Shown: positions 1,000-55,904 of the stretch, piece after piece | How the letters are laid out: each line of letters opens with the position of its first letter | Numbering within the stretch: the stretch's first letter is position 1 | From: Hydractinia symbiolongicarpus | Taxonomy: Eukaryota > Cnidaria > Hydrozoa > Anthoathecata > Hydractiniidae | Assembly (NCBI RefSeq): GCF_029227915.1 | Contig: NC_079884.1 | Coordinates: 23,126,001 to 23,190,000, forward strand | Direction: 5' to 3' | DNA: 64,000 nt | Notes under the pieces: model-generated | Seen by the model: only the letters and a program-made list of their open reading frames with translations | Told to the model about the DNA's origin: nothing | Databases searched by the model: none | Program-made: the position numbers and the translations under genes

Positions 1000-1980
1000 G
1001 TTTACAAGTTCCTCCCTGTGGAGACTATTAAACCAATTCAAATCTACAATATTTTACTAAAATATTCAAATTTTTCAAAGTTGGCGCAAAGGATGAAATA
1101 GCTAATACTCCACATCCAATATCGAAAGGTGTAATTGCAGATGCACAAGATAGGGATAAAAAATCTATTGGACTAAATTATTATTATTATTAATATTATA
1201 GACCAATTTACTCCGGGTCGAGTTAACAGGCTCTATAATAATTGATATTAATTAGCATATCATTGTAGATTTAGGAATATTGTGAGTGATCAAACACATA
1301 TTCAGTATATCCGTCTTTTGTCCAAAGTTCTGTTGCTCTTTTATTAGAAAATTAGAGCTTGGCTATTAAAGCACATTAAATTGTCTATAAGATAAAGTAA
1401 ATATGAGGTTTAAATTCCTTTTCTAATAAATTTATATTTTTTTTTAAGACAACGTCCAAAACTTCTCTCCGTTTGACGACACTATGTTTGTCAGGATTCG
1501 AGTTTCCCGTCCTGTTCAAAATCAACATTTTGCTAACAAATAAATTTTGTTACAAGATGCTTTAGGCTGTGTTTTTATTTAAACTAAAGATTAATTTTTT
1601 AACTTTCACGAAAACACTATTAGCTGCATTGAGTAATGGCAGGCTGTTGCCTGTGCTTTTATTTAAATCTAATATGCGAGTAAAAATTGGTTGAAAAGGA
1701 GCATCAATACTGAATACAGTTCTGCAAGCACTTCACACGCGTGCTTGGCATGTTTAAAATATACTAACACCTCAATGCGGCGTCTCTTACAATTAATTTT
1801 GAACTTTTACCGTATATTTGTACCCTGTGTTTTTTACTTCAGCTGAGGTTGCGGCAGAGTTACATTTTATAACAGTCCTTTAGCACATTTGTATTGTTTT
1901 TAGTATGTAGATATTAAGTCCTAAAATTCCATTAAAAATCAAAACTTATCCGGAAACGTTGGACTCAAGTGAATTTCTAT
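1000..1980. other. intergenic, AT-rich, no gene seen
   Basis: No coding, RNA or repeat feature could be supported between the GPCR-copy duplication and the tandem repeat. The sequence is low-complexity AT-rich. Confidence 0.5.
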
Positions 1981-3150
1981 AACCACGTTTATGATACCAA
2001 AAATATATACGAAATATTTGTGGAGGTTTAGAGGTTTAGTTTCGTATTTATAGACGAAACTAAACCTCCTTATTGAACAATATGAGGCTTGTATAAAATT
2101 GTTGTTTATACAGTAAACCTTTATGTTTTAAGGCTTATTGACCCTACATAAACTCAAGCTATTTTAATATTTTACATAAAGGGAAAGGAAGAGGCGATGT
2201 AACTTGTAGCCAGCCTCCGTGATTGAAATAAGAATTTTGATAGGACGCTACAAAAGAACATGTTAGTAGGACATGAGATCCGGAGGGTTTAGATAAAAAA
2301 TCGTCATTCCCTCTCTCTTTTAAAAAAAAGAAGAAAAACACAAACCCTGTGCTGTAAAACTTATAATATTTTTCTTTCTTACATCATCTTCATGATCGAT
2401 CACATCATCCTACGATATGTGATTACAATTTTTTTTGACATTAAATTAATAACACTTAAGTTTTTTGTTTACATATGCCATATTTTTATTCTGTGAAATA
2501 ATGAGCGCACGCATGTATTTGAGGAATGTTGTAGTCAAGTGAAGAAATTGTCAAATTTTATTGTTTATGAAATATTCAAAATATTCAGAAATATACGAAT
2601 TACTCGTGGTGATACTGTGTAGTCAAAATTAAACGTCTCTACCGAACAATTTGAGACTGCATATGACTATATATACTTATGTAGCAAAACTATTCTTTAG
2701 AGATGTCAATATTTACATTATACAAACTCAAGTTATTTTCACGTTTAACATACAGAGACAAAAATGTTGAAATAGTTTGTATCAGTGTCTGTAATAGTGT
2801 CACAAGTTAAAATGTTGGGTGAAATAAACAAAAACAAATGCTTAGAATTTAAAGCAAACAATTTTCGGATTATTCATTATCAATGATTGGATGAAAATAA
2901 TCTCCCTGTCTCAAAAAAACAAAAAAGAATACAAACTCTAGCTTATCTGACATCGTCTCCATATAGGACCACATCTCATCTTATGATATGTTTTTTTGAC
3001 ATGAAACTGATAACACTTCTACACATTCATAGTTTCATTCTGTAAAATAATGAACGCATGCATGTAATTGAGGTGCGGTAAGTCTAACAAAAAATTGCTA
3101 ACTTTTATTCTTTGAAATATCAGAAATATACGAAATATTTGTGGTGATGC
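1980..3150. repeat. degenerate tandem repeat, unit about 565 bp, about two copies
   Basis: Several landmarks recur in the same order: 'acgaaatatttgtgg' type motifs near 2003, 2595 and 3130; 'aaactcaag(c/t)tattttcacg' type motifs near 2150 and 2730; a 'catc(a/g)tct' block followed by 'gatatgt' near 2385 and 2950; and 'taacactt...ttctgt(g/a)aaataatga(g/a)cgca(c/t)gcatgta' near 2450 and 3010. Divergence is substantial, so this is an old duplication. Short ORFs within it do not look coding. Confidence 0.6.
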
Positions 3151-3944
3151 TGTGAAGTGAAAACTGGCTGAAATAAGAAAGACTGGCATTATATATTGCC
3201 GGAATGCAAAGACGAGAATGGCGAACTCATAGAATAATACAATGGACAAACTTAACACATACCATGTATCCTTCCGAAAATTATTCATTACGGAATAAAA
3301 TGAGTACAGGCAAACTAACAGGTATGACATGGTATAGTGTTCGTCTATTACATCAGGAGAAAACGCAATGGCTTGTTCACTTTTCAATGTCACATTTTTT
3401 GTTTTAACTCTTTTGCTCACACGATGCCATCGTAGTGTCAAAGCAAGATTATTCTAGTCTTTGTGCATCAAAGTTATGTTATTACGTTCTGTATATTGGA
3501 TAGGTTCAATTTTGAGTGGAAAGACACAATCAGATACAAAAAATTTTTAGGCAACTTGTTAACATGGTGATAATAAATGTAGCACTGCTTGATTGTCAGG
3601 CTGTGCCGTGCCAAACCGAACTCATAAATTTTTTATTAAGCCTCGGTTCAATACAAAGTTTTATAAGAGTCGAGTCATGCGGCAATGATGCGTCACCTGT
3701 GTGACACGGGTCGGTTTGGTTGATGATGTTACAACTTGTGCGCGTTGAACTAAGTTAGTATCTTATGGCTTAGGTTTGGAACGGATAATTTTTGCTAAAT
3801 AATTTTTCTTATCATAAACGAATGGACATTCACTAATACTGCCATCTTTTTTGTTACTTGCATACTTTAATGCTTACATTAAAATTTTTCTTTCCCATAG
3901 TAATATAAATAAGGATAATTAAAAAATAAATAAATAATAATCGA

Positions 3945-7110: not shown

Positions 7111-8010
7111 TCAAGTTGTGTTACTGCAACGATTTTTCATTACGCTTGTAACGTATCTCTTAACCTTCTTGTTTAAGCTCAAAAAAATAATCGCGTTCAC
7201 AAAGGAATTAAAATACGTTAATACAAAACCAAGTATTAATGCATACTCGAGCCATTGTTTCCTAATTCCATCCCATTTTTGACTAACAACCGCATGTGTG
7301 AATGAGACGATGATGTAAGGTATATAGCATATGACAATAGCTGTCAATATTCTTGACGCTGTACGTGTGACAGTAGTGTCAACGGCTTTTAACATATCTC
7401 TGGACTCAGTGCGTTTAGAATGTACCTTTACAACCCTCACTGTCATAATGTAAGCAGTGAAGACACTGATTGCAATGACTGCATCAATACTAACGGTAAT
7501 TTGTTTTGCCTTTGAAAGAAAATTCAATTGTGTCCCAAGTACATAGACCATTGCTTGCGTTAGTGACAGCAGTACAACTGCTGTCAGAATCATTATTACT
7601 CTTTTGTTTGTTATTACTTGAGCATATCGATTAAGATATCGCATATGGATATATCGATCAAAACCAATCAATGCAATGATGTAAGCAGATATATGCGTAA
7701 AAAAGATGGCAAAAAACTGAACAATAGTTTCAAAATCACAATCTTCAAACTTTGCAAGCATTACTGTAAAGAGAGTTTGTGTTATTAATGCCAGGCAACA
7801 ATCATTAATACTCAAATATAAAATGAGTTTTAAGGAGTAGTTTTTAAGTTGCTTTGTGGCAACCAGACCATAGATGACAGCACTGTTGAAAATAAGATTT
7901 AAAATCATGACAATGACATTGAGGGTGATTAAGGAAATGATTTGTCCATTGTTGAGGTATGATTTTCCACTGTATGTAGTCTCACACTCGGTATGATTCT
8001 GTACAGTCAT
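7111..8010 (-). CDS. orphan class A (rhodopsin-like) GPCR, copy 2, complete
   Basis: A single-exon gene of 299 aa. A short N-terminus with an N-glycosylation sequon (NHT at residue 5) precedes seven hydrophobic helices: about 23-50, 59-83, 97-119, 137-160, 168-190, 217-240 and 255-280. LSIND in TM2 and DRY at 118-120 are class A marks; TM7 carries NSFVNAIIF in place of the usual NPxxY. The cytoplasmic tail is short and basic with no lipidation cysteine cluster. It probably acts at the plasma membrane through G proteins for an unknown ligand. It is the tandem partner of copy 1; the duplication also includes several hundred bases upstream of the start. Confidence 0.85.
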   Translation of the reverse strand: MTVQNHTECETTYSGKSYLNNGQIISLITLNVIVMILNLIFNSAVIYGLVATKQLKNYSLKLILYLSINDCCLALITQTLFTVMLAKFEDCDFETIVQFFAIFFTHISAYIIALIGFDRYIHMRYLNRYAQVITNKRVIMILTAVVLLSLTQAMVYVLGTQLNFLSKAKQITVSIDAVIAISVFTAYIMTVRVVKVHSKRTESRDMLKAVDTTVTRTASRILTAIVICYIPYIIVSFTHAVVSQKWDGIRKQWLEYALILGFVLTYFNSFVNAIIFLSLNKKVKRYVTSVMKNRCSNTT

Positions 8011-8096
8011 CTTTTGTTTCTCTCCTAAAAAAGAGTTTAAAGCTTTTCTGAAAATAACAAATGCAATGTATTTTTGTCAACTTTGCTGCGAATTTC

Positions 8097-8124
8097 CGTG
8101 AATTTTCTACGGGCAAACGACTAC
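8097..8124 (+). mobile_element. decayed Helitron-like 3' end upstream of GPCR copy 2
   Basis: This is the counterpart of 727-754; the hairpin has mismatches and the terminal CTAG has become CTAC. Confidence 0.4.
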
Positions 8125-8872
8125 TCTAAAATACGCACCTGTAAGAAGTTCTGCTGCAAATTTGAACCTAAGCAGTAAAATACTGAACATGTACCCACAT
8201 TTCAACTAAAAAATAAAAATAAAAAATAATTCACTGTACATTGTAAACGAAATAATTTTCTATACAGGAAAAAAACGGAGCTCTCAAGTTTGTACATTGC
8301 TTTTATATAGAACATGAAGTTCAATATTGATGAAAAAGATTAAAAATATAAACATTTTACAAAACCCAATATCGCAAATTATAAACATTTAAAAATATGA
8401 CATTTTGCAGTCTAAATTTATTGCATAATATCTTTTGCGTACGCAACAATCTGAAATTCCCAGGAGTCGTATTAATCGTGCCTCGCACTTCACAATCGAT
8501 TATTATTTGCAAGCCAAATAAAAGATTCCACTTAAACAAAGAATTTGGTTTTTCTATATTTCCTTATGCTTTTTTTCTAGCTATCCTGAAGACATAAAAA
8601 TTTAAATTTATGCACCTTTCTTCCTTTTTTTCTTATCTTCTTACTTTATCTTCACTGGAAAAGCTTTCTATTGTTATAAAACCCGTGTAAGGGTAAATTC
8701 TATATAATTTATTGCAATAAAAAATTCGAATCAAATTTTGAAATATAATTTACTTTTCCACAATTACGTCTACAACACAAGCATAACCATGCAATAATAT
8801 TTTATTGCCAAAAATAAAAGGACCACAATGAGATCTAGCACAATAACTTTTATTTTAGCAGTTTGTCTTTTC

Positions 8873-33627: not shown

Positions 33628-35558
33628 CACCATTCTCCGATTTCAGCGCGATCATAATTTTAAAATGACGTAATCTAATAATGGCGGATTTCGTATGTAA
33701 ACAAACCCTTAACGTGATCGAACACAGTAAGCGTTACTATTTCTTATGGTAAACAATTAATTAAATAGACCTTTAAATTATTTTAAAATAGTTTTTTAGT
33801 AACATATTAACTTTATTTATATGAAAAGATGCAATATGTGTTTAACGAGTCAAGTTGATGTGCTAAATGCCATCAATTTCTCAGCGTCATTTTTGTAAAA
33901 ATAGTTTTACTACGCTTCTTAATATCAATTTAGAAAGGGTTGCGGAGAGGTTGCCAAGGCAAAGGCATTAAGCACGGCAATGAGACAGGAATAGGAATCA
34001 GCAAGGCAGGGGTAGGCAAGGCATGGGAGGCACAGGCAAGGGCATAGTAGTAGGCAGGCACGATAAAAGGCATAGGAAGGGTAGGCAGGGGCAGGAACCT
34101 CAACAGAAACTCTCCCCCTACAACTCAAAAATTACGTATAATAATGTACAATACAACAATATAGAAAGGATTGCAGAGTGTGGGACTGCCCCCCCCCCCT
34201 AGGTATTCAAGCAAAAATATTTAGTGTTCCTTATTTTGAAAAGATTCCTTGGCAGGACAAACATGTATAATTGCCTTTTCTAAACATGACATTTTTGTGA
34301 TATGTAAATGAAAGTGGTTATTGTTGCCCTGTCCAGGATTTGAACCTGGATCTCTCATTTTCATGAGTGTCTTAGCCATTAGACCAACAGGGCATATATA
34401 TGAAAAACTTTACTGGTGCATATGCTTATGGATTTACAGCACATATAGCCATTTAATTCTTCTTGTGGATAATAAAATTCAATTTTTTCTACTAAATAGA
34501 TGGGGGGACCTGGTGTTGAAAAGTTTGGATAAGGAACTGTATTACCCAATATTAAACATCTGGTGGAGCGATTAATAGGAAACTGTGCCATCATTCATGT
34601 GGAGCGCTTTAGTAGAAGCATGCAGTATATCATAAATCGGGTGAAGCACACACACAGCATTAGGGAGTTTTAGGTTAATATATTTTTAAAATACAGTTTA
34701 CATGTCGTGTCCATCATAGCAAATTTTCTCAAAATGTTTGCGGAAAAACTTAAAATATGAATTGTAATCCACGGTGAGCGCTTAGTACAGGTAAACAATG
34801 TCGCACATCCATATATATATTTTCATATATTTCATTTTATTTCGTACAACAAGTTTTCATGACAGTAGGATTAAAAAGCTCTTATTCCAAACTGAACAGA
34901 AACCTCAAAAGTATAGCAATAAACTAGGCTAGCTTGGTACTTAAATAGAGCCGGGCTTAAAAGGATTCCTGAATTGAAAATGTTATTTTGTATGTTATAG
35001 AGGATAAAAAATGTTAAAAATCTTCCTTCGTTCTCAAGTTTATGTCAGCAAAATTGGTAGTTTTATCACAGCTAAGTAGTTAATTTTATGCTAGCTTTGT
35101 ATAGCTAGTTTTATGCCAGTTTTACGTTACCTATATATTTACATACTTGCTCTATTTTATGCCAGCTAAAAGCCTTAAAAGTGTTTTTTTTACTGTTGGA
35201 AAGGTGAATAATCTTAAAAAACGTAATAAAACAGTACAGCTATCCGCCATCAAACTGTTCAAACTTCTTTAAAAAAGGCAGCAAGTTAGCGTTATATTTC
35301 TCACCAGAACGGTGGTTCACACGAACACATTCCTAAAACACGAGTTGTGGAACATGTGTGTGAGCTCCTCCATCTTTCTAGTGCATAATCTTCATTCCCA
35401 CATACAGAAAAAGCACAACGTCTAACCATGTTTTATATTCGAAGACTGTACGTCGACTGTTGAACACGCTTTGTTTACATACGAAAATGTAGATTAGTGC
35501 CGAGGCCCCTCGCGGTAAATATGTATTTTACAGAACAAGCTGAAATCGGAGAATGGTG
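33628..35558. mobile_element. 1.9-kb element with 20-bp terminal inverted repeats and TA duplication
   Basis: Starts CACCATTCTCCGATTTCAGC and ends with the exact inverse, flanked by TA on both sides (33626-33627 and 35559-35560). A second inverted pair (CGTATGTAAACAAA near 33692 and its inverse near 35472) strengthens the case that both ends belong together. TA duplication points to the Tc1/mariner/pogo order. No transposase is visible, so it is non-autonomous. Inside are a purine-rich minisatellite-like stretch (33940-34100, 'ggcaggggtaggcaagg') and a tRNA-like pseudogene. Confidence 0.65.
34325..34393 (-). pseudogene. tRNA-Glu-like pseudogene with a 4-nt anticodon loop
   Basis: Minus strand, 69 nt: acceptor GCCCTGT/ACAGGGC (7 bp), D arm GTCT..AGAC, T arm CCAGG-TTCAAAT-CCTGG and a discriminator A are all intact, as are the A box (TGGTCTAATGG) and B box (GGTTCAAATCC). 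The anticodon arm is CTCAT-GAAA-ATGAG, with a loop of 4 nt instead of 7, so no anticodon can be displayed. The D-arm sequence is most like tRNA-Glu. No CCA is encoded. Confidence 0.65.
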
Positions 35559-42123: not shown

Positions 42124-42414
42124 TTAAAGGGGCACTCCAGTGAAAAAAAAATATTTGAAAAAAATGTTATTTTTATAAGACAATACATAAATATGTCAAA
42201 ATAAACCTTTTACAATCGTTAAAAATCTTTATTTATACCTTAATCGCGTCCGTAAACATCTTCAATTTCAAATAAATTTGCAAGGTCGCGTAAAGTCGAG
42301 AGGACTAGGTCCGAATAAATTAGCATACGTCACATCGTGCAAAAAGTCCGTGAGCTCAGCAGCACGCCTTCTAAAAGTTTTGTTTACTTACTGTTTACAT
42401 TGTTCGTTGATAAG

Positions 42415-43460
42415 ATGTCTTGTAATAATGACGAAGAATATAACTTAGAAAGCTCAGAATCGGATAATTCTCTTCATGAAAAAGACTTTACAAAGCTACA
42501 GCCATACGAATTTGAACCTCTTGTGTCTGACGAGGAAGAAGTTAGTAACGGTGTAGAAAATGACGAGGTTTCTTTTACTGATGCAGAGCCACGTACGGGT
42601 AATGCAAATTGGTGTGAATGTGGAAATTGTAGAGCAATGGAAACCGATACTGAAAGCGTGTGCTGTGTCGAGTCAAACGAAATTCCTGATGAGTTTTTCC
42701 AAGGTAGGTAGGATATATACTGCAAATATAATTTTTTTCTAAGCGAAATTTTCCTTTTTAAACAAATAAAAAATATATTTCATCGCTTTTCTTTTACATT
42801 CTTTTCGTCAAAAACTTTATCTTTTGCTTCAATAAAATAATCTTTCATCACTTTTTTTTTACTTCACAAGCCAATTTATTTTTATTTCACGGTTCAACAA
42901 TCTAATTCCTCCGCATGCGCTTTTTTTTGCACACAAATGCAAAGAAATCTTATGTAATGTTACATTTTCTCCGTGATGGAGAACATTGAAATGCGTGATC
43001 GAAAGATCGAATAAGGTTCGTGTGGAAATGATAAGTTAGTAAAACGGGGGTATAAATATTGTATAATTGAAAAGCACTCTTATCATAGGTCATAAATGCG
43101 TTACAGAAGCTGCTGATTTTCAAGTGGTTGTTTTGACAAAAGCTGTTTTAGAAACTGCGTTATCTGCATTGCATGATTTGAGAGGAGACACTTTAGAATT
43201 AAAAAATGAGTAAGTAGCTCAACCTCGTTTCCAAGCCCTTCTTTTGTCCGAGAAAAAGAAGGTAAAAAACTGACAATAATGCCTCCCTTATTTTTCTATA
43301 TAGATCTTATCGTTACGCTGGTTATAAACAGTTCACTTGGTGGATACACAGTCGATTGGGAAAAGGGGTGAGAAGAGTGATTCCTTCTTGTGTAGTATGG
43401 GCAATTCGAAGAAAATATCCGGCAGAAGATGAAAAATATGTTTTATTCAAAGAAAGTTGA
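42415..43460 (+). CDS. P2X7 C-terminal ('ballast') domain-like protein, second gene of the Kolobok element
   Basis: Three exons by GT..AG borders: 42415-42703, 43089-43209, 43304-43460, giving 188 aa with phases that match. An acidic N-terminus (about 1-70) is followed by NWCECGNCRAM and SVCC, then HKCVTE, and at the end YRYAGYKQFTWW and VIPSCVVWAIRRKYP. This is the cysteine and RY/IPSCxxxxIRxxFP pattern of the cytoplasmic ballast domain of vertebrate P2X7, known to bind two zinc ions and guanine nucleotide. There is no channel part and no signal peptide, so it is a free soluble, probably zinc-binding protein. It lies within the transposon and converges on the transposase with 23 bp between stops. 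Its role in transposition is unknown; DNA or RNA binding is only a guess. Confidence 0.75.
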
Positions 43461-43483
43461 ATAAAAATAAAAAAATAAAAAAG

Positions 43484-46151
43484 TCACGTTTTAAATCTTG
43501 TCCTGATGGCTTTAATGGCATCGCTTTTGTCGGGTTTTTCAACCTCTGTTATTCTTTCAGCAATTTCTCCTGTTTGTGGTAACTTATCTTTTTCGTTGTC
43601 GATTGGTTCCAAAGTAGCCGTCATTAATTCTGCTAAATACGCCTTTTCTTTCTTCTCGGTAATTTTTTTTACGACCCAGGATTGTGTTACTCGTGAAAAG
43701 ACTTGTTTATAGCGGAGTACTCCTTTTTTGGTAACAGCCTGTTCACAATTAGTCCCCGAGTTAAAATCAAGGACAGCCAGCTGCGTGCGCGCGATCATAC
43801 CTTCCATGCTGAAATGAATACGTTTCGGGCAATATTTGGTAAGCAAAGAATGGAATACCTCTAGGCTTCCCGTATGGCAAAAGTGCGCCAAATAGTTCAT
43901 GTCGGCAAGAGTTTTTTTATTTTGCACAATAGTCTCCACTGCTTCATATGCAGGTGAATTCAACTTTAACCATTTGCGTTGCTGGTCTAATGTGGGGTGC
44001 GCACATTCATGGAAATATTCATTGCCTTGCCAAGAGTGGATTCCACGAATATGATAAAGAATGCTAAGCCACCTTTCACGTAAAACGTTTTCATTTTTGT
44101 CGCATGAAGCGCAGCACCACCATAAATGATTTATAATGGATTTGATCCAAGGTATCAGCTCAAGACATTCTTTGCGCTTCGCAGCAGCAGTCAAGCTTTT
44201 TTTCAAGCTTTTTCCAAAGTGCCAAACGTCGAACTGGTGGTTTATCTCAGGATGTTCTTTCTTCATGAATGCGCGGATTTGAACATGGCGATCTGTTGTT
44301 AATGCTGAAACTGTCACTTTGTGGTCACGCAGCTTATTTAGTAGCGTTACTAATCCCCACTTCTCCATTCGACTAGAATTCCCTGCAGTTCTAACATGAA
44401 CAACTTGAAAGTCGATGATTTTATTGATGTCTACGCTCATTAGAGTGTACGTACCATACTTTGCACTGTAACCTGGAGAGTCACTTCGCCCATCACCAAT
44501 CAAATTCCCTTCTTTCGCAGCGCACTCAGAATAAATGTTATTTCGATATTTTTTATAAAAAGTGTTTAATTTTGGAAAAAGAACGGACCTTTGAATATCA
44601 TAGAAGGTGGACTTAGAGATAAACTGAAGCCTCAAAATACTCATCATTTCGGCAATGCGGGCGTATGTGTTTCCGGAATACAATATGGCTGCAGAAAGTA
44701 ATAAGTTCCCTGCTGCTCTTCCATTTACGATAGGTTGAGACTGCCAGCTGAAAACATGTTTATTTGGACAAATACTAGTAACAATGATAAGAGTTCCACG
44801 TTTTACCACACGAGTAATGCACGTTTTTTGTAAACACGTGAAACAAACTTGAAATAATGTCAACAGACAAGACCAGAAAACAAGAAATTGTGCGTCGCTT
44901 TTGAGCCCTGGGTTACATTCAGCAGTGTCAAAAGACTCTTCTTCGCTGATATTTTCATCATAACTGTCGTCGATGTGAATTTGTAATTGCGGTGAGTATA
45001 AAGAATCATCAGAAGGGCACTCATCACCAGAGACGATATCATGATCACTTTCCATATTTGCATTCAGCAAGAATGTCACGTCAGCTTGCGGAGGAAAGGA
45101 TAGGTCGGTGTTAGTAGACTTACATCGTCCGTGCGGAAGAGTAAATTTCACTTTTAAAACATCCTTCGTTGGTTGTATCTCAGGATGAATTGCCTCTAAG
45201 GGATCATCACATTGTGTTCTAACGGACCTGGTAAAAGTATTGGCACCAACCGATTTCTCTACCGTTTCCACAATTGCACTAACGCCTTGTTCCTTAACCA
45301 ATGAAATTATTTCTTGTTCAGCGTATACTTCAAGGTCAACATCATCCTCCACACTTAAAGCCTTTGCAACACACTAGAAAAAAAATGATCAGAATAACTT
45401 CCAAGAAAAAAGACAGGCACAACTCACATTTTGGCAATAGCATAAATTTTAAAAACACACTTGTTTTTTAGCGAAAGTTTCCAATCTTTTTGATGTCGAT
45501 TCTCTTGAATTTTCAGGCTTACTAAAAGAAAAAATTGTTGGAACAGCATCCTCGGTCAGCTGTCTCTTTCTTTTGATACCAGTAAGTTCAGCCTAAATAA
45601 ACAAAGATTAGAAGTAGCGCCGATGAAATGATGCTAATAAAATGGGCACATTTACCCCCTGAAAATATTCGGCAGGTCCTTCCATCAAAAAGCTTCTTTT
45701 TTGAAAAACAAAGAATAGAAACTTACGAGCGCTACGAAAGATACATGTCTAACTAGATAACTTTGTATTGGAAATTGGTATAATGTTCTTTTATAATATA
45801 AATATGTAGAAAACGTTATTTGGTTGTGTTGTGGATATAAGTACAAATAATGAAATGAAGAAGAAATGAGAAACTTTGATCGCGTTGACTAGCTAAAATG
45901 GCATTTTTACGAAGTGGCAATATTTTAATATGGAAGATTATTACCTGGAGATCCCTTTTAAAAGAACTATCTGTGAAGTGCGACGAACAAATATAAAAAC
46001 TTCGATCGCTTGGTAGATCACCTGTACGACGTATTTTGTTTAGCCATTTTTGTCTGAGTTCTTTCTTTTTCACAGACGGGATTCTGTGAAAACTGACTTC
46101 TTTACACTTTTCTGATCGATTGGTACATCCAAACGCAGAGCAACTAACCAT
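43484..46151 (-). CDS. Kolobok transposase with N-terminal THAP zinc finger
   Basis: Three exons: 46151-45945, 45592-45461, 45373-43484, all phase 0, giving about 742 aa. The THAP domain is residues 1-69 with C4, C9, C55 and H58 of the C2CH motif, and gives sequence-specific DNA binding. A short basic linker with DAVPTIFSF follows, then an acidic region and the catalytic RNase H-like domain with GDGRSDSPG (about 406-414), TDRHVQIRAF, DVWHFGKSLKK and CHTGSLEVFHS; acidic residues in these motifs are the likely catalytic set. No stop or frameshift is seen. It should cut at the AGGGG termini and reinsert at TTAA. Confidence 0.8.
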
Positions 46152-46465
46152 TTTTTAAAGATTTAAACGTAATTTACATACAAAAAGCGATTTAAATGTA
46201 AGCCAGAGGTCTTAACATGAACGTTCTCTGCGCTCGCTTAAACTTTCTGCACGATGTGATGTCATTGTTTATAATCGGGTCCAGTCCTAAATGAAATCGC
46301 GCCTGTCTGTTTTTTTATAAGAAAAAAATTGAATATGCGAAGGCTAGTACAACGATTTTAAATAAGGAAAACAAGTGAAGTAAGTTTTTTTTGATTTCTT
46401 ATGCTTTTCTGAGTACGTATAAAACAAAAAAGAAAAAAGTGATTTTTACTGGAGTTCCCCTTTAA

Positions 46466-48121: not shown

Positions 48122-50343
48122 TTATTTTTGATCGAAAAAGCTCAAAATACTAGTTTGCTTCTTGTTTTTCATTTCACTTTTAAGAAACAAATCTTCAAAG
48201 CGAAGCAGGAGGCGTTGCATGTCATTTCCATCATCAGTGAATAGACAAGCATTTTGTAAAGTCTCCACTGCAGTGTTTATTTCTGATTTTGTTGGCTTGC
48301 TCACTGGCTCATCAAACACCTCGATGACATCGGCATTTTCATCATGCTTCTCGTCATTCTCATCTGTACTTGGCCGTACCGACTCAAGGATTTCTTCATC
48401 AGTCACGGGATTTTCGATTGTGGTCAAATCTTGGTCAATATCGACAACATCACGTGCCGAGAGATCAGCAGGAATAATGGTATCGTCAATGGCACGCAGT
48501 TGTGTGAGATCTTTCTCCAGTTGTTTAAATGGATCATCAATATTATCAGTTGCATTCTGTTGAGCTTTCTTGGAAATCTTTGATTTCTTGAAGCAATTTA
48601 CGATGGTTTCTTTCTTCACTTTGTCCCACGACGAAACAAGTATTTGAAGAGCACGCAGAATTGAAACTTTTGGAAGATCTTTGCCTTTTTCTAGGTTTTG
48701 AATCATCATGTTGACCAATTTTTGGCGATAAAGAGACTTAAGACATCTTATGACACCTTGGTCCATCGGTTGTGACACAGAAGTTGTATTTGGAGGTAAG
48801 AAAATCAATTTAATGTTGGGCAGTCCACCGACACCAGGGTGAGCGGGACAATTATCGATGATCAAGACTATCTTTCGACCTTCTTTTAGAAACATTGCAT
48901 TGATTTCTCGCACCCACTCTTCAAAAAGAGAGCTGTCCATCCAACTCTTCTTCTGCGCTCTGTACCTGCAGGGTAGGGATGTTACATTTTTGAAGCACCT
49001 TGGTTTTTTCGATTTACCAATCACAAACATTGGTAGTTTATCTCCGACAGCATTGGCAGCTGCAAGCCCGGTAATTCGGACTTCGCTATTTTTACCCCCA
49101 GAGCATTTTTCGGATTTGTAGTGATACGTTTTATTTGGCAAGCATTGGTAGAAGAGACCGAATTCGTCGGCATTGTAAATATCTTCTAGTTTGTAGTTAG
49201 TTAATAATGTTGGTAAAGTGGTTTCAAACCAAGATGCTATCATATCAGGTTGAACAGAATTGCTTTCACCAACGACCGTCTTGAACGTTACATTGTGCCT
49301 GAAATAGAAAATAAAACAAATACCGACTTGTATAAAAGATTTATTGTTAACCTGTTCGTGCATTTTTTCGAATACGAATGTTCGAATTTCAATTCGAATG
49401 TTTTTAAAAATTCTTGTGTGAACACCCTATCATTATTACTTGTGCATGGCAACAAGGAAAAGCAAACCAGGAGAAAAAGGAGAAGATGGATCTTGCAAAA
49501 ATGATAATTGATCAAAATTTAATCAATGTTGTAATGATAAAAGAATTTGAATTGGCTTCACATGTTAAGGGGTTCCACGTTTATAAAGCATTGTGGACTC
49601 CAAAAAATGGGGAGACTTTACAATGCGAAGGAGAGCCTAATAATCCCGTTGACAAATATGCTGTGTGTGTCAAGAAAGAAAACAAGATAGTTGGACATTT
49701 ACCACTTGGAAAATCTGGAAAATTTGCTAAAACAATATTTTATTTCCTCAGAGCTGATGAATTAAGCTCGTGCAAAGTAACTGTGACTGGCAAACCAGTT
49801 AATTTGGGAGATGGTGAAGGCATGCAAGTGCCATGCAATTTGACATTTATTGGAACGGAAAAGTGCATCGAGATACTCAAGAAACATATTTAGTTTATGT
49901 TAGTCTTTTTAAGATTTTAATATCAAAATAAAACCAATTCGAAAAAAAGAGATTTAATATTCTTACCTTTTTTTCCATTTACCAAGCCAACCGTCTGAAG
50001 CTTTGAAATCTTCTACTCCAAGCTCCTGTGCATAGCTTTTAGCTTTCTCCTTTAGTATTGTCCCATCGATTGGTATGTTTTTGCTTCGTTGTGAAACAAA
50101 CCATTTGAACACGACAATATCTACTTCTGAGAATTTACCATCTCAGATCTTTCTTTTCTTGCTCGAAGATTTTTCGAGAGCAGAAAAAAGTTTTTCCTTA
50201 TTGGCTAGCCAAGTTGATATCGTGTTTTTAGGCACCCCGTACTTTTTAGCGATATCTTTATTTGGAATACCTTTTTCCAATTCTTTTAATGCTTGGCATT
50301 TTTCTGCCAAAGTTTTTACAACGAGCTTTCTTTTCGGTGGCAT
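48122..50343 (-). pseudogene. Tigger transposase (DDE_1/CENP-B type), two exons, one premature stop
   Basis: Exon 1 is 50343-49967, exon 2 is 49298-48122; the donor AAAG|GTAAGA and acceptor TTTCAG|GCAC join to give WKKRHNVTF, the standard continuation of the family. Total 518 codons. N-terminal HTH (KDIAKKYGVPKNTISTWL) and CENP-B-type HTH (IPIDGTILKEKA...FKASDGWL) bind the ends; the DDE domain shows NADEFGLF, LIIDNCPAHPG and PMDQGVIRCLK with 30 residues between the second and third Asp; an acidic tail follows. One in-frame TGA at 50145-50143 splits the two HTHs; a CGA-to-TGA change would explain it. Otherwise the frame is open, so this copy is recently inactivated. Confidence 0.8.
49486..49893 (+). 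CDS. HIRAN-like domain protein, antisense inside the Tigger transposase intron
   Basis: 135 aa, single exon, ATG at 49486 in a purine-rich context. Nearly the whole protein is one HIRAN-like domain: VKGFHVYKALWTP, GETLQCEGEPNNPVDKYAV, KIVGHLPLGKSG and VPCNLTFIG. In HLTF and related proteins HIRAN binds 3' ends of single-stranded DNA; here the protein is free-standing. It lies entirely within the 49299-49966 intron and on the opposite strand, with no stops, while the transposase carries one. It may help transposition, repair the excision site or restrain the element; none of this is shown. Confidence 0.75.
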   Translation: MDLAKMIIDQNLINVVMIKEFELASHVKGFHVYKALWTPKNGETLQCEGEPNNPVDKYAVCVKKENKIVGHLPLGKSGKFAKTIFYFLRADELSSCKVTVTGKPVNLGDGEGMQVPCNLTFIGTEKCIEILKKHI

Positions 50344-50891
50344 TCTGACAAAGGAAATCACAAAAAAAACATTGCAAAATCTACCTGTTTTACAATGGAA
50401 TGTCTTCTTTTTATTGCAACATTTTGTGGCTTTAAAACAAGCAGTGCAAGGTCTTCTTTTTTCAAAATTCCTCTTCAAGAGTTCGAGATAACGAGCGTAA
50501 ATCAGTCCAAGGGACTGAGAAAAAAGTTCGAGATAGTGAAAGTTCGAGATAACGGAGGTTCGAGATACCGAACGTTTTTTTGCCTACTATTGCTTACAGA
50601 ACTCAAGGGACCGAAGAAAAAGTTCGAGATAGAGAAAGTTCGAGATAACGGAGGTTCGAGATAATGAGCGTCGACTGTAATTCTTTTCTGGTTGATGAGG
50701 TCTTCACTTTTCGAATTTCCTCCTAAAGTTTTGATTGTATGGTCGGATTTGTTGCCGATTGCGCCATAAAAAAAGCTTTCGGTCATTATGACGATATGGT
50801 TCTTCGGAGTTTCTCTCTAAGTCGTTCCATCTACCCATCGTTATTTGTTTTCGCACATTTTTGTGTTTTGGGCGAAAAGATTTCCCCAGGT

Positions 50892-53644: not shown

Positions 53645-54124
53645 TTACTCAAAAATAGCTTTCTTTTTAAAATCATTTACAGCGTTAAATTTCATAGCAA
53701 AGTGTTCGTATCTATTTTTTCTTTTCAATAGTTCATCATTTAGAATAGTTATCAGTTCTTTACGTGTTGTCATAGCACTGTACTTTGCCGGGATGACAAG
53801 CCCAACTTCTCTTTTTCTCTTTCCAATCACGGTTGCTGTCACGACGTTATAATGGTCTACGTTTAGAAATTGTTTTATGAGTTTTGATAACTCCAATGGA
53901 AGATGACCAACAAGCCCATCTACTGTTCCTTCTTTGCCCCATAAATAAACGCCGATTGCATTTTCATCGTATTCTGTAGCTTCATTTCTTGTATCAACTG
54001 CACATTTCAGTTTTAAGTTTATTTCAGGCGTCCATTTTGACTGGTAAACATGATGACCACGGATAGCAGTTTCAAAATCCAAAGTGTAAAATATATTGCA
54101 GAAAGAAGAGTTTGTTCTTGCCAT
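53645..54124 (-). CDS. HIRAN-like domain protein, divergent partner of the pogo-like transposase
   Basis: Start chosen at 54124 (MARTNSSF), giving 159 aa; the frame is open further upstream through a hydrophobic stretch, and an upstream exon (from an ATG at 54366, donor AAAG|GTGACA) could instead be spliced on. Domain motifs: IRGHHVYQSKWTP, EATEYDENAIGVYL, GLVGHLPLELS, and GKRKREVGLVIPAKYS, a HIRAN-like fold related to but clearly diverged from the one at 49486-49893. No stop interrupts it. It shares a ~320-bp divergent promoter region with the transposase, so co-expression is likely. Confidence 0.65.
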   Translation of the reverse strand: MARTNSSFCNIFYTLDFETAIRGHHVYQSKWTPEINLKLKCAVDTRNEATEYDENAIGVYLWGKEGTVDGLVGHLPLELSKLIKQFLNVDHYNVVTATVIGKRKREVGLVIPAKYSAMTTRKELITILNDELLKRKNRYEHFAMKFNAVNDFKKKAIFE

Positions 54125-54445
54125 AACTTTTATGTTAGCTATCTTTATGACTAGTAGTGAAATATAGTAAATTGGCACTTTAATTAGATGTGACTGCAGC
54201 TGTGATAACAAGAGAAACAAAAAACACCATTTGGAACAACTATTAAGTTGTCACCTTTGTCTTTTGATCTTTGTGAACATCGATGAAAACACTCCATCTT
54301 ATTGGCTTTACACAATGTTAGATAGTTGAGGAGCTTGCAGAAATTGTCTTCTGTGGTGAAGGACATTTAAAAAAAATCTGCGAAGTGAAATAAAGATAGC
54401 TTTGGAAATAAAGAAAAATTTCAAGGTCAAGTGTGGTACGAAAAT

Positions 54446-55904
54446 ATGGCGGATGGAAACGAAACTAACGAAGTCGCTATTTCTCATAAGGGTAAAAAAG
54501 TATCTAGTTATAGCTTAAAGTTTAAGCTTGACGCAGTAGCTTACGCCGAACTCAATAGCATAAGTTCAGCAAGCAGAAAATTCAACGTTGATAGAAAGAG
54601 AATAAGAGAATGGTCAAAGTGTAAAGAAGAATTACAATCTTTAAAAAAGAAAGATCACGGTTCAATAAGGAAACGATTAGACGGTGCTGGACGCAAACCT
54701 CTCGATCAGCAGATGGAAGAAGTGCTTGTTGAATGGATTTACGATAGACGAGATAAAGGACTTCGAGTTTCCAGAAAACTGATCATGAAAAAAGCCCTTT
54801 TTGTGTATAATGAGAAAGCGAAAGAAAGTGATTCAGAAAATACCATCACATTTGTAGCAAGTACAGGGTGGTTGCAGAAGTTTATGCTTCGAAATGGGCT
54901 ATCTCTGAGACGAAAAACTTCTGTCGCTCAAAAAGATCCTTCTAAGTTGATCGATAAACTTGTGTCTTACATACTCCACACTCGACGTTATGCTTCTAAG
55001 TATCATTATTCACCTTCAAACATCATAGCAATGGATGAAACACCCGTTTGGTCAGATATGGTATCTGATACAACAGTACATAAAAAAGGTGACAAGACTG
55101 TTACAATGAAAACTACTGGCCATGAAAAATCACGAGTATCTGTCTGCTTAACAGCAAAAGCGGATGGAACAAGATTGAAACCGTATATCGTATTTAAAGG
55201 CGCAAAACGTGAGTCAAAAACACTAAACGACGAATTCAAAACACGCTGTATAATAGCTTCTTCATAATGGCTGGATGAATACTGAATTGACTCTTGACTA
55301 TACTAAGAAGGTTTTGGGAAGTTTCTCTTTCGGTAAGCGATTTTTAGCGTGGGACTCCTACGAGTGTCATATGGAAAGTAGTGTTGCAGCAGCATTAAAG
55401 TCTTCAAACATTGATCAGGTTATTATTCCCGGAGGATGCACGAAGTACATTCAAGCACCAGATGTGTCATGGAATAAACCATTTACGGCGATGTGTACAG
55501 AAAGATACGATCAATGGCTTGCAGATGAGGGAATACACAACGAAACCGTTGATGGCAATCTTAAGGCACCACCTCGTGAACGTATTGTTGAATGGATTCT
55601 AGAATCGTGGTCATCCTTATCAGCTGATACCATTAAACAATCATTTAAGTCATGCGCACTAAATATAAAAGTTGATGGTTCTGAAGATGACGATATTCAT
55701 TGTTTCAAAGAATCACAACCTTGTGCAGCAGGCAAAACAATGCTTAAAACACAAATGCAGGTATTACGGGATGCCGAGGATGAAACAAACCCTTTTTCAT
55801 CACATAGCGTAACTGATTCCGATGTAGAAGAGGCGGCAAACGAAGTTTTTTTATTGGACGATGACGAAATCGAAGACGATGATATTGACATAGAGAATAT
55901 TTAG
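54446..55904 (+). pseudogene. pogo-like transposase (POGK-type, DDE_1), one frameshift
   Basis: ATG at 54446. An N-terminal psq-type HTH (LKFKLDAVAYAE...ASRKFNVDRKRIREW) is followed by a CENP-B-type HTH (EWIYDRRDKGLRVSRKLIM...ASTGWLQKFMLRNGLS) and the DDE domain: IIAMDETPVW, LAWDSYECH and QAPDVSWNKPF, with 35 residues between the second and third Asp. An acidic C-terminus follows. The frame shifts by one base at about 55263, between CIIASS and NGWMN, where a single extra base breaks the gene into two frames (54446-55267 and 55275-55904). Otherwise intact, so inactivation is recent, or a programmed shift would be needed. Confidence 0.75.

Follow-up and report, generated by a model that had tools for sequence, protein, structure and literature searches.

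The Kol0 lineage of Kolobok transposons was described by Kojima and Bao in 2022 (PMC9587614), where 5'-RR ... YY-3' termini serve to define Kolobok elements and KolX, a second protein resembling residues 476-595 of the receptor P2X7, serves to define Kol0. According to the same paper, ballast proteins had not previously been pointed out as parts of Kolobok transposons, P2X7 is proposed to have arisen when a P2X4-like gene and KolX fused, and nanor is likely a domesticated KolX. The ballast of P2X7 binds a guanine nucleotide, and five residues contacting GDP have been named (PMC7016195). Like KolX, nanor and other ZCD-only proteins are short and consist of the ballast alone, with the difference that they are treated as host genes in PMC7016195 whereas the KolX genes described here lie inside mobile copies. 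Two more distant systems offer further points of comparison. P elements and THAP9 combine a THAP N-terminus and a DDE-type core with terminal and subterminal inverted repeats, as does the element analysed here, but differ from it in that their target duplication is 8 bp long and their transposase contains a GTP-binding insertion, in place of TTAA and a separate KolX (PMC7776569). Harbinger transposons likewise encode a transposase and a smaller partner protein, in their case Myb-like and unrelated to the ballast (PMC9179366).

The window analysed here is a stretch of 64,000 nucleotides from Hydractinia symbiolongicarpus, and the genome searched comprises 480,894,487 bases in 76 contigs. The window carries an element that shares with the Kol0 lineage (Kolobok-1_XT; PMC9587614) the TTAA duplication, the 5'-RR termini and a DDE transposase accompanied by a P2X7-ballast-like second protein. 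Its components are as follows, with exons based on predicted splicing and gene models:

42124-42127, no strand: left TTAA target-site duplication
42128-46461, no strand: Kol0-type Kolobok element of 4,334 bp (transposase plus KolX)
42128-42146, plus strand: left terminal inverted repeat, paired with the right end
42415-42703, plus strand: KolX exon 1, with the ATG at 42415 and five of seven conserved cysteines (cysteine alignment)
43089-43209, plus strand: KolX exon 2, with the sixth conserved cysteine (cysteine alignment)
43304-43460, plus strand: KolX exon 3 and stop, with a conserved PSC...IR block that holds the seventh cysteine (alignment)
43484-45373, minus strand: transposase exon 3, DDE core (motifs)
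45461-45592, minus strand: transposase exon 2 (splice sites retained in copies)
45945-46151, minus strand: transposase exon 1, THAP zinc finger (Pfam)
46443-46461, minus strand: right terminal inverted repeat, paired with the left end
46462-46465, no strand: right TTAA target-site duplication

An earlier reading of this DNA, made from the sequence only, had placed a Kolobok transposon at 42128-46461, and this span proved exact, being flanked by TTAA on both sides and bounded by termini that recur without change in 16 further copies. For this comparison, 17 sibling stretches were taken, 13 of the 16 retained ones having been picked by a match to KolX exon 3 and three by a transposase match; L056, an older relative whose alignment is broken into segments, was excluded, leaving 17 copies including that of the window. 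They occupy 16 distinct flank pairs, one of which is common to L044 and L049. The TTAA-specific 4-bp target duplication of Kolobok elements is present on both sides of 16 of the 17, L046 having TTTA at one side. Ten copies are 4,330-4,334 bp long and seven are internally deleted; full-length members are approximately 99.7-99.9% identical and the family is young. The inverted arms at the element ends extend over 23 nt with 91% complementarity, and of the 75,443 TTAA pairs that the window contains at spacings of 0.3-12 kb, only four, the element's own pair included, reach at least 15 of 17 complementary interior bases. The termini, AGGGGC... and AGGGGA..., conform to the 5'-RR ... YY-3' pattern that separates Kolobok from piggyBac. 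Long terminal direct repeats of the KolobokP kind were absent from the largest 20 of 46 direct-repeat families listed, all of which are 29 nt or shorter. Nor does the element hold a nuclease or helicase gene as in KolobokD, E or H, its Pfam matches above cut-off being P2RX7_C and THAP only (Mutator, MULE and LPD39 match below threshold). Chance does not account for either the ends or the gene models.

Searches with the element ends gave at least 40 matches per end (best 40 of 291 and 40 of 293 candidates). Part of them form an older group with about 92-97% identity. All six members of this group that were examined lack the element middle (about 1,049-3,508), and both ends were seen in L067 only. 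Across bins, identity in six old deleted derivatives is 91.4-96.7%, and any stronger conservation of the terminal 200-300 bp is too weak for use.

The transposase is encoded on the minus strand by three predicted exons and comprises 742 amino acids with a THAP domain (Pfam, E 1.3e-18), in agreement with the sequence-only reading, which had described a complete THAP transposase within a TTAA-flanked Kolobok. Its DDE-core motifs are GDGR at 406, TDRH at 473, DVWH at 495 and SLEVFHS at 616, and these include the C/DxxH found in Kolobok transposases between the second D and the E. We take the catalytic residues to be those marked by these motifs, an assignment made by motif rather than by structure. 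Exon 3 modelled alone reached a mean pLDDT of 33.9, too low for use, and its best match among solved structures had an E-value of 0.31. Transposase splice sites are retained in 16 of the 17 copies, the deleted copy L048 lacking them.

KolX is a predicted frame of 188 amino acids that requires three exons, joined across GT-AG introns whose splice sites are retained in all 17 copies. Residues 26-186 match Pfam P2RX7_C (score 86.2, well over the cut-off at 23.5; E 3.5e-24), and the solved structures matching at E 0.001 or better are exclusively those of P2X7 (four distinct sequences, E 8.5e-10 to 2e-8). The spliced P2X7-ballast gene originally read from the letters is thus confirmed, and KolX and the C-terminal ballast of P2X7 (6u9v, 9e3m, 8tr5) are homologous domains. 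The matched P2X7 domain had been described there as zinc- and nucleotide-binding. All seven of its zinc-site cysteines have counterparts in KolX, which align in MAFFT with human P2X7 C477, C479, C482, C498, C499, C506 and C572, an alignment that is aligner-dependent at the CC pair, which phmmer sets against R492 and C493 in a pairwise comparison instead. The nucleotide site is weaker than had been implied, as two of the five GDP-contact residues are kept (R140 for R546 and R172 for R578), while H547, R574 and K583 are replaced by Y141, V168 and A177. When five sequences are aligned (the window KolX, human P2X7 and three other loci), R140 and R172 do not vary, and the same two contacts are kept in other invertebrate ballasts according to PMC7016195. 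Unlike P2X7, KolX has no P2X channel domain (PF00864; P2RX7_C is its sole Pfam match) and carries an additional acidic N-terminal part, including QPYEFEP, outside the P2X7-matched stretch.

On these grounds, it is close to certain what the element and KolX are. Since the link between KolX and P2X7 was published in 2022, the element adds a member to a known kind and rediscovers that link independently. The same applies to a mobile source of the P2X7 exon, suggested by the sequence-only reading and already stated in PMC9587614, which is also the only paper in the literature searched to use the name KolX. Kolobok and P2X7 come up together there and in one general review. The family of the window element may already carry a Repbase name.

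KolX is a high-copy gene in this genome. At least 150 matches to P2RX7_C were found, all above the Pfam cut-off (best 150 of 466 candidates), together with at least 78 transposase matches (best 70 of 435 candidates). Among those listed, 41 of the 150 KolX matches have one of the 78 transposase matches no more than 3 kb away, where 0.15 would be expected by chance, and 40 of these 41 pairs are on opposite strands. The other 109 are more than 3 kb from any listed transposase, which does not make them free-standing because the listed transposases are the best 70 of 435 candidates. For the best 30 KolX loci, transposase similarity was found within 1.5 kb in 27, being absent at L009, L010 and L031. 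Five loci hold both genes inside TTAA-flanked ends, with 14, 14 and 13 of 14 end bases matching at L057, L058 and L059 and 13 and 14 of 14 at L061 and L063. In the corresponding families F2, F3, F4, F6 and F7, the two genes stand on opposite strands within TTAA/TIR ends, and the transposase pieces are 34-45% identical to that of the window's family (F1); F6 and F7 (L061, L063) are related, with transposases 62% identical to each other. F5 (L060) also carries both genes, with no TIR pair found within the 7 kb examined and no cysteine at the C506 position of its KolX. The KolX genes of F1 and F2 differ by a dN of 0.51 and a dS of 1.62 over 185 codons. One further locus, L062, initially considered as an eighth family (F8), showed no TIR pair and was rejected, as it is 97.6% identical to F2 (the family of L059) over 3,436 bases.

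Many copies and several families establish KolX as a true transposon gene, as the sequence-only reading had held in placing the ballast gene within a Kolobok. Ballast genes lying consistently outside Kolobok ends, which it had named as the finding that would speak against it, are the opposite of what is seen wherever gene and ends are both visible. That 109 of the 150 listed matches are unpaired with a listed transposase mostly reflects lists confined to the best candidates. Transposons can carry pieces of host genes, and a host ballast gene recently captured as cargo by a single Kolobok (transduplication) would also fit the youth of the window's copy family. This reading is largely refuted and barely credible given that KolX lies opposite the transposase in seven diverged families, six with TTAA/TIR ends seen, whose transposase pieces, F5 included, are 26-45% identical to the window's. 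Passage of the domain in the reverse direction, from a P2X7-like receptor into the transposon, is very unlikely. Sequence similarity by itself gives no direction, but PMC7016195 reports proteins made of the ballast alone from sponges, cnidarians, molluscs and arthropods, and outside vertebrates it reports no ballast joined to a typical P2X architecture. Moreover, the one P2X receptor locus found in the host (G000:C13:8333772-8344518; five matches, all 10 candidates scored) lacks a listed ballast match nearby, the nearest being about 0.67 Mb away on the contig among the best 150 of 466. A young multi-copy family with both genes intact-looking lends independent support to the published view of the P2X7 ballast as a KolX, and makes both the role of KolX in the transposon and the original purpose of the ballast testable. 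Transposon genes may also hide among the short "P2X7-like" genes that invertebrate genome studies count as expansions of immunity. A giant-clam study (PMC11700175) counts a P2X purinoceptor expansion as immune, and some of its members may be KolX genes of transposons.

Taken as a whole, the element is very probably a Kol0-type Kolobok DNA transposon with two genes that has been active recently and looks autonomous. As a member of this class it would move by cut-and-paste into TTAA. The THAP domain would help recognise the ends, the DDE core would cut and join them at TTAA, and KolX would be a zinc-built accessory subunit helping to bring transposase and ends together. For the accessory role taken separately, the conserved pairing with the transposase and the Harbinger precedent (PMC9179366) tip the balance slightly in its favour. 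KolX might instead be dispensable for transposition and be kept for persistence, regulating the process or acting on the host as a repressor, in silencing escape or in nuclear import. This is rather unlikely, although KolX is open for 188 amino acids in 15 of the 17 copies and the transposase for 741-742 in seven (both in six), a KolX count that is biased upward because 13 of the 16 further copies were picked via KolX. A two-gene pairing conserved across families suits a joint role, while being compatible with a regulatory one. Within the family, changes are too few for dN/dS to show selection, and several pairs have dN equal to or above dS. The two genes point inwards from opposite ends of the element, so that the terminal 300 bp probably double as recombination end and promoter.

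The terminal regions of the window element contain a second pair of inverted repeats:

42327-42347, plus strand: left subterminal inverted repeat, 199 bp inside the end, containing ACGTCA (a TGACRT-like core with its first bases changed)
46242-46262, minus strand: right subterminal inverted repeat, 199 bp inside the end, with a TGACAT core starting two bases nearer the end

The two repeats agree at 19 of 21 positions at an identical offset, a value reached by none of 2000 dinucleotide shuffles. Inverted pairs with a TGACRT-like core are present about 160-200 bp inside the ends of F1 to F4. Across the six families with ends seen, TGACRT occurs in inward orientation 140-230 bp inside 11 of 12 ends, against a maximum of four of 12 in 2000 single-base shuffles; the exception is the left end of the window element, where ACGTCA stands at the motif position. 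F6 and F7, which were left out of the motif derivation, carry it in four of four ends, although this counts for less than four independent tests because the two are relatives. THAP-type GGGCA sites occur once in the left end and not in the right, and the idea was dropped. Candidate roles for TGACRT are a site for the transposase or KolX, or a promoter element. The chances that it is a CRE/ATF-like promoter element of both inward genes, unrelated to transposase binding, are even in our estimation. In the window element, the start codons lie 287 and 310 bp from the ends and the repeat at 199, which puts the motif approximately 90-110 bp upstream of each ATG, and the CRE consensus, TGACGTCA, favours this reading as well. 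Against it, the distance from the end is fairly constant (158-198 bp in the 11 ends carrying the motif), and P elements and zebrafish THAP9 elements are known to carry subterminal inverted repeats too, their spacers measuring about 100 and 400 bp (PMC7776569). The motif is likely new: it was not found for Kolobok ends in the literature searched, none of the matches to Kolobok plus subterminal concerned Kolobok as judged by title, and the words "subterminal", "binding site" and "promoter" are absent from the main text of PMC9587614.

A more speculative proposal, which we hold to be improbable, combines these elements. The GTP that P-element transposase requires is bound by the insertion within its own catalytic domain (PMC7776569), and KolX could conceivably supply this cis feature in trans, as a guanine-nucleotide-responsive, zinc-built transpososome subunit seated on TGACRT at both Kol0 ends. 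On that view, the ballast of P2X7 would have been domesticated from a cofactor of transposition, and its nucleotide site would be older than the receptor.

Single-sequence searches of viral and prokaryote collections gave no relative of KolX or of the transposase, and viral contigs searched with a KolX-P2X7 alignment gave none either. Among genome contigs there was one weak match, a secreted peptide of a Bacteriovoracaceae contig (L001, 4965-5339), that has WCECGSC and an EYEP stretch in common with KolX (36.6 bits and 29% identity over 96 residues, with E 2e-8 for a single comparison after motif selection). With the threshold relaxed to E 1 the peptide still gives no match to P2RX7_C, and it is probably unrelated to KolX; it adjoins solute-binding and YcaO genes, possibly a RiPP-like cluster.

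Elsewhere in the window, positions 1-1007 and 7384-8362 form a duplicate at 83% identity over ORFs of one GPCR type, the second of which matches Pfam 7tm_1. Two pogo/Tc5-type transposase relics (DDE_1, CENP-B_N, HTH_Tnp_Tc5) lie at 48122-50583 and 54389-55904, and a HIRAN-like ORF below the Pfam cut-off is found at 49408, with a look-alike, recognised by eye only, at 53645. A tRNA gene occupies 34325-34393 on the minus strand. Short MITE-like inverted-repeat pairs are located at 8873-8919/9609-9655 and 6643-6703/7038-7096, with TTAA beside or within them and end sequences other than those of the Kolobok element.
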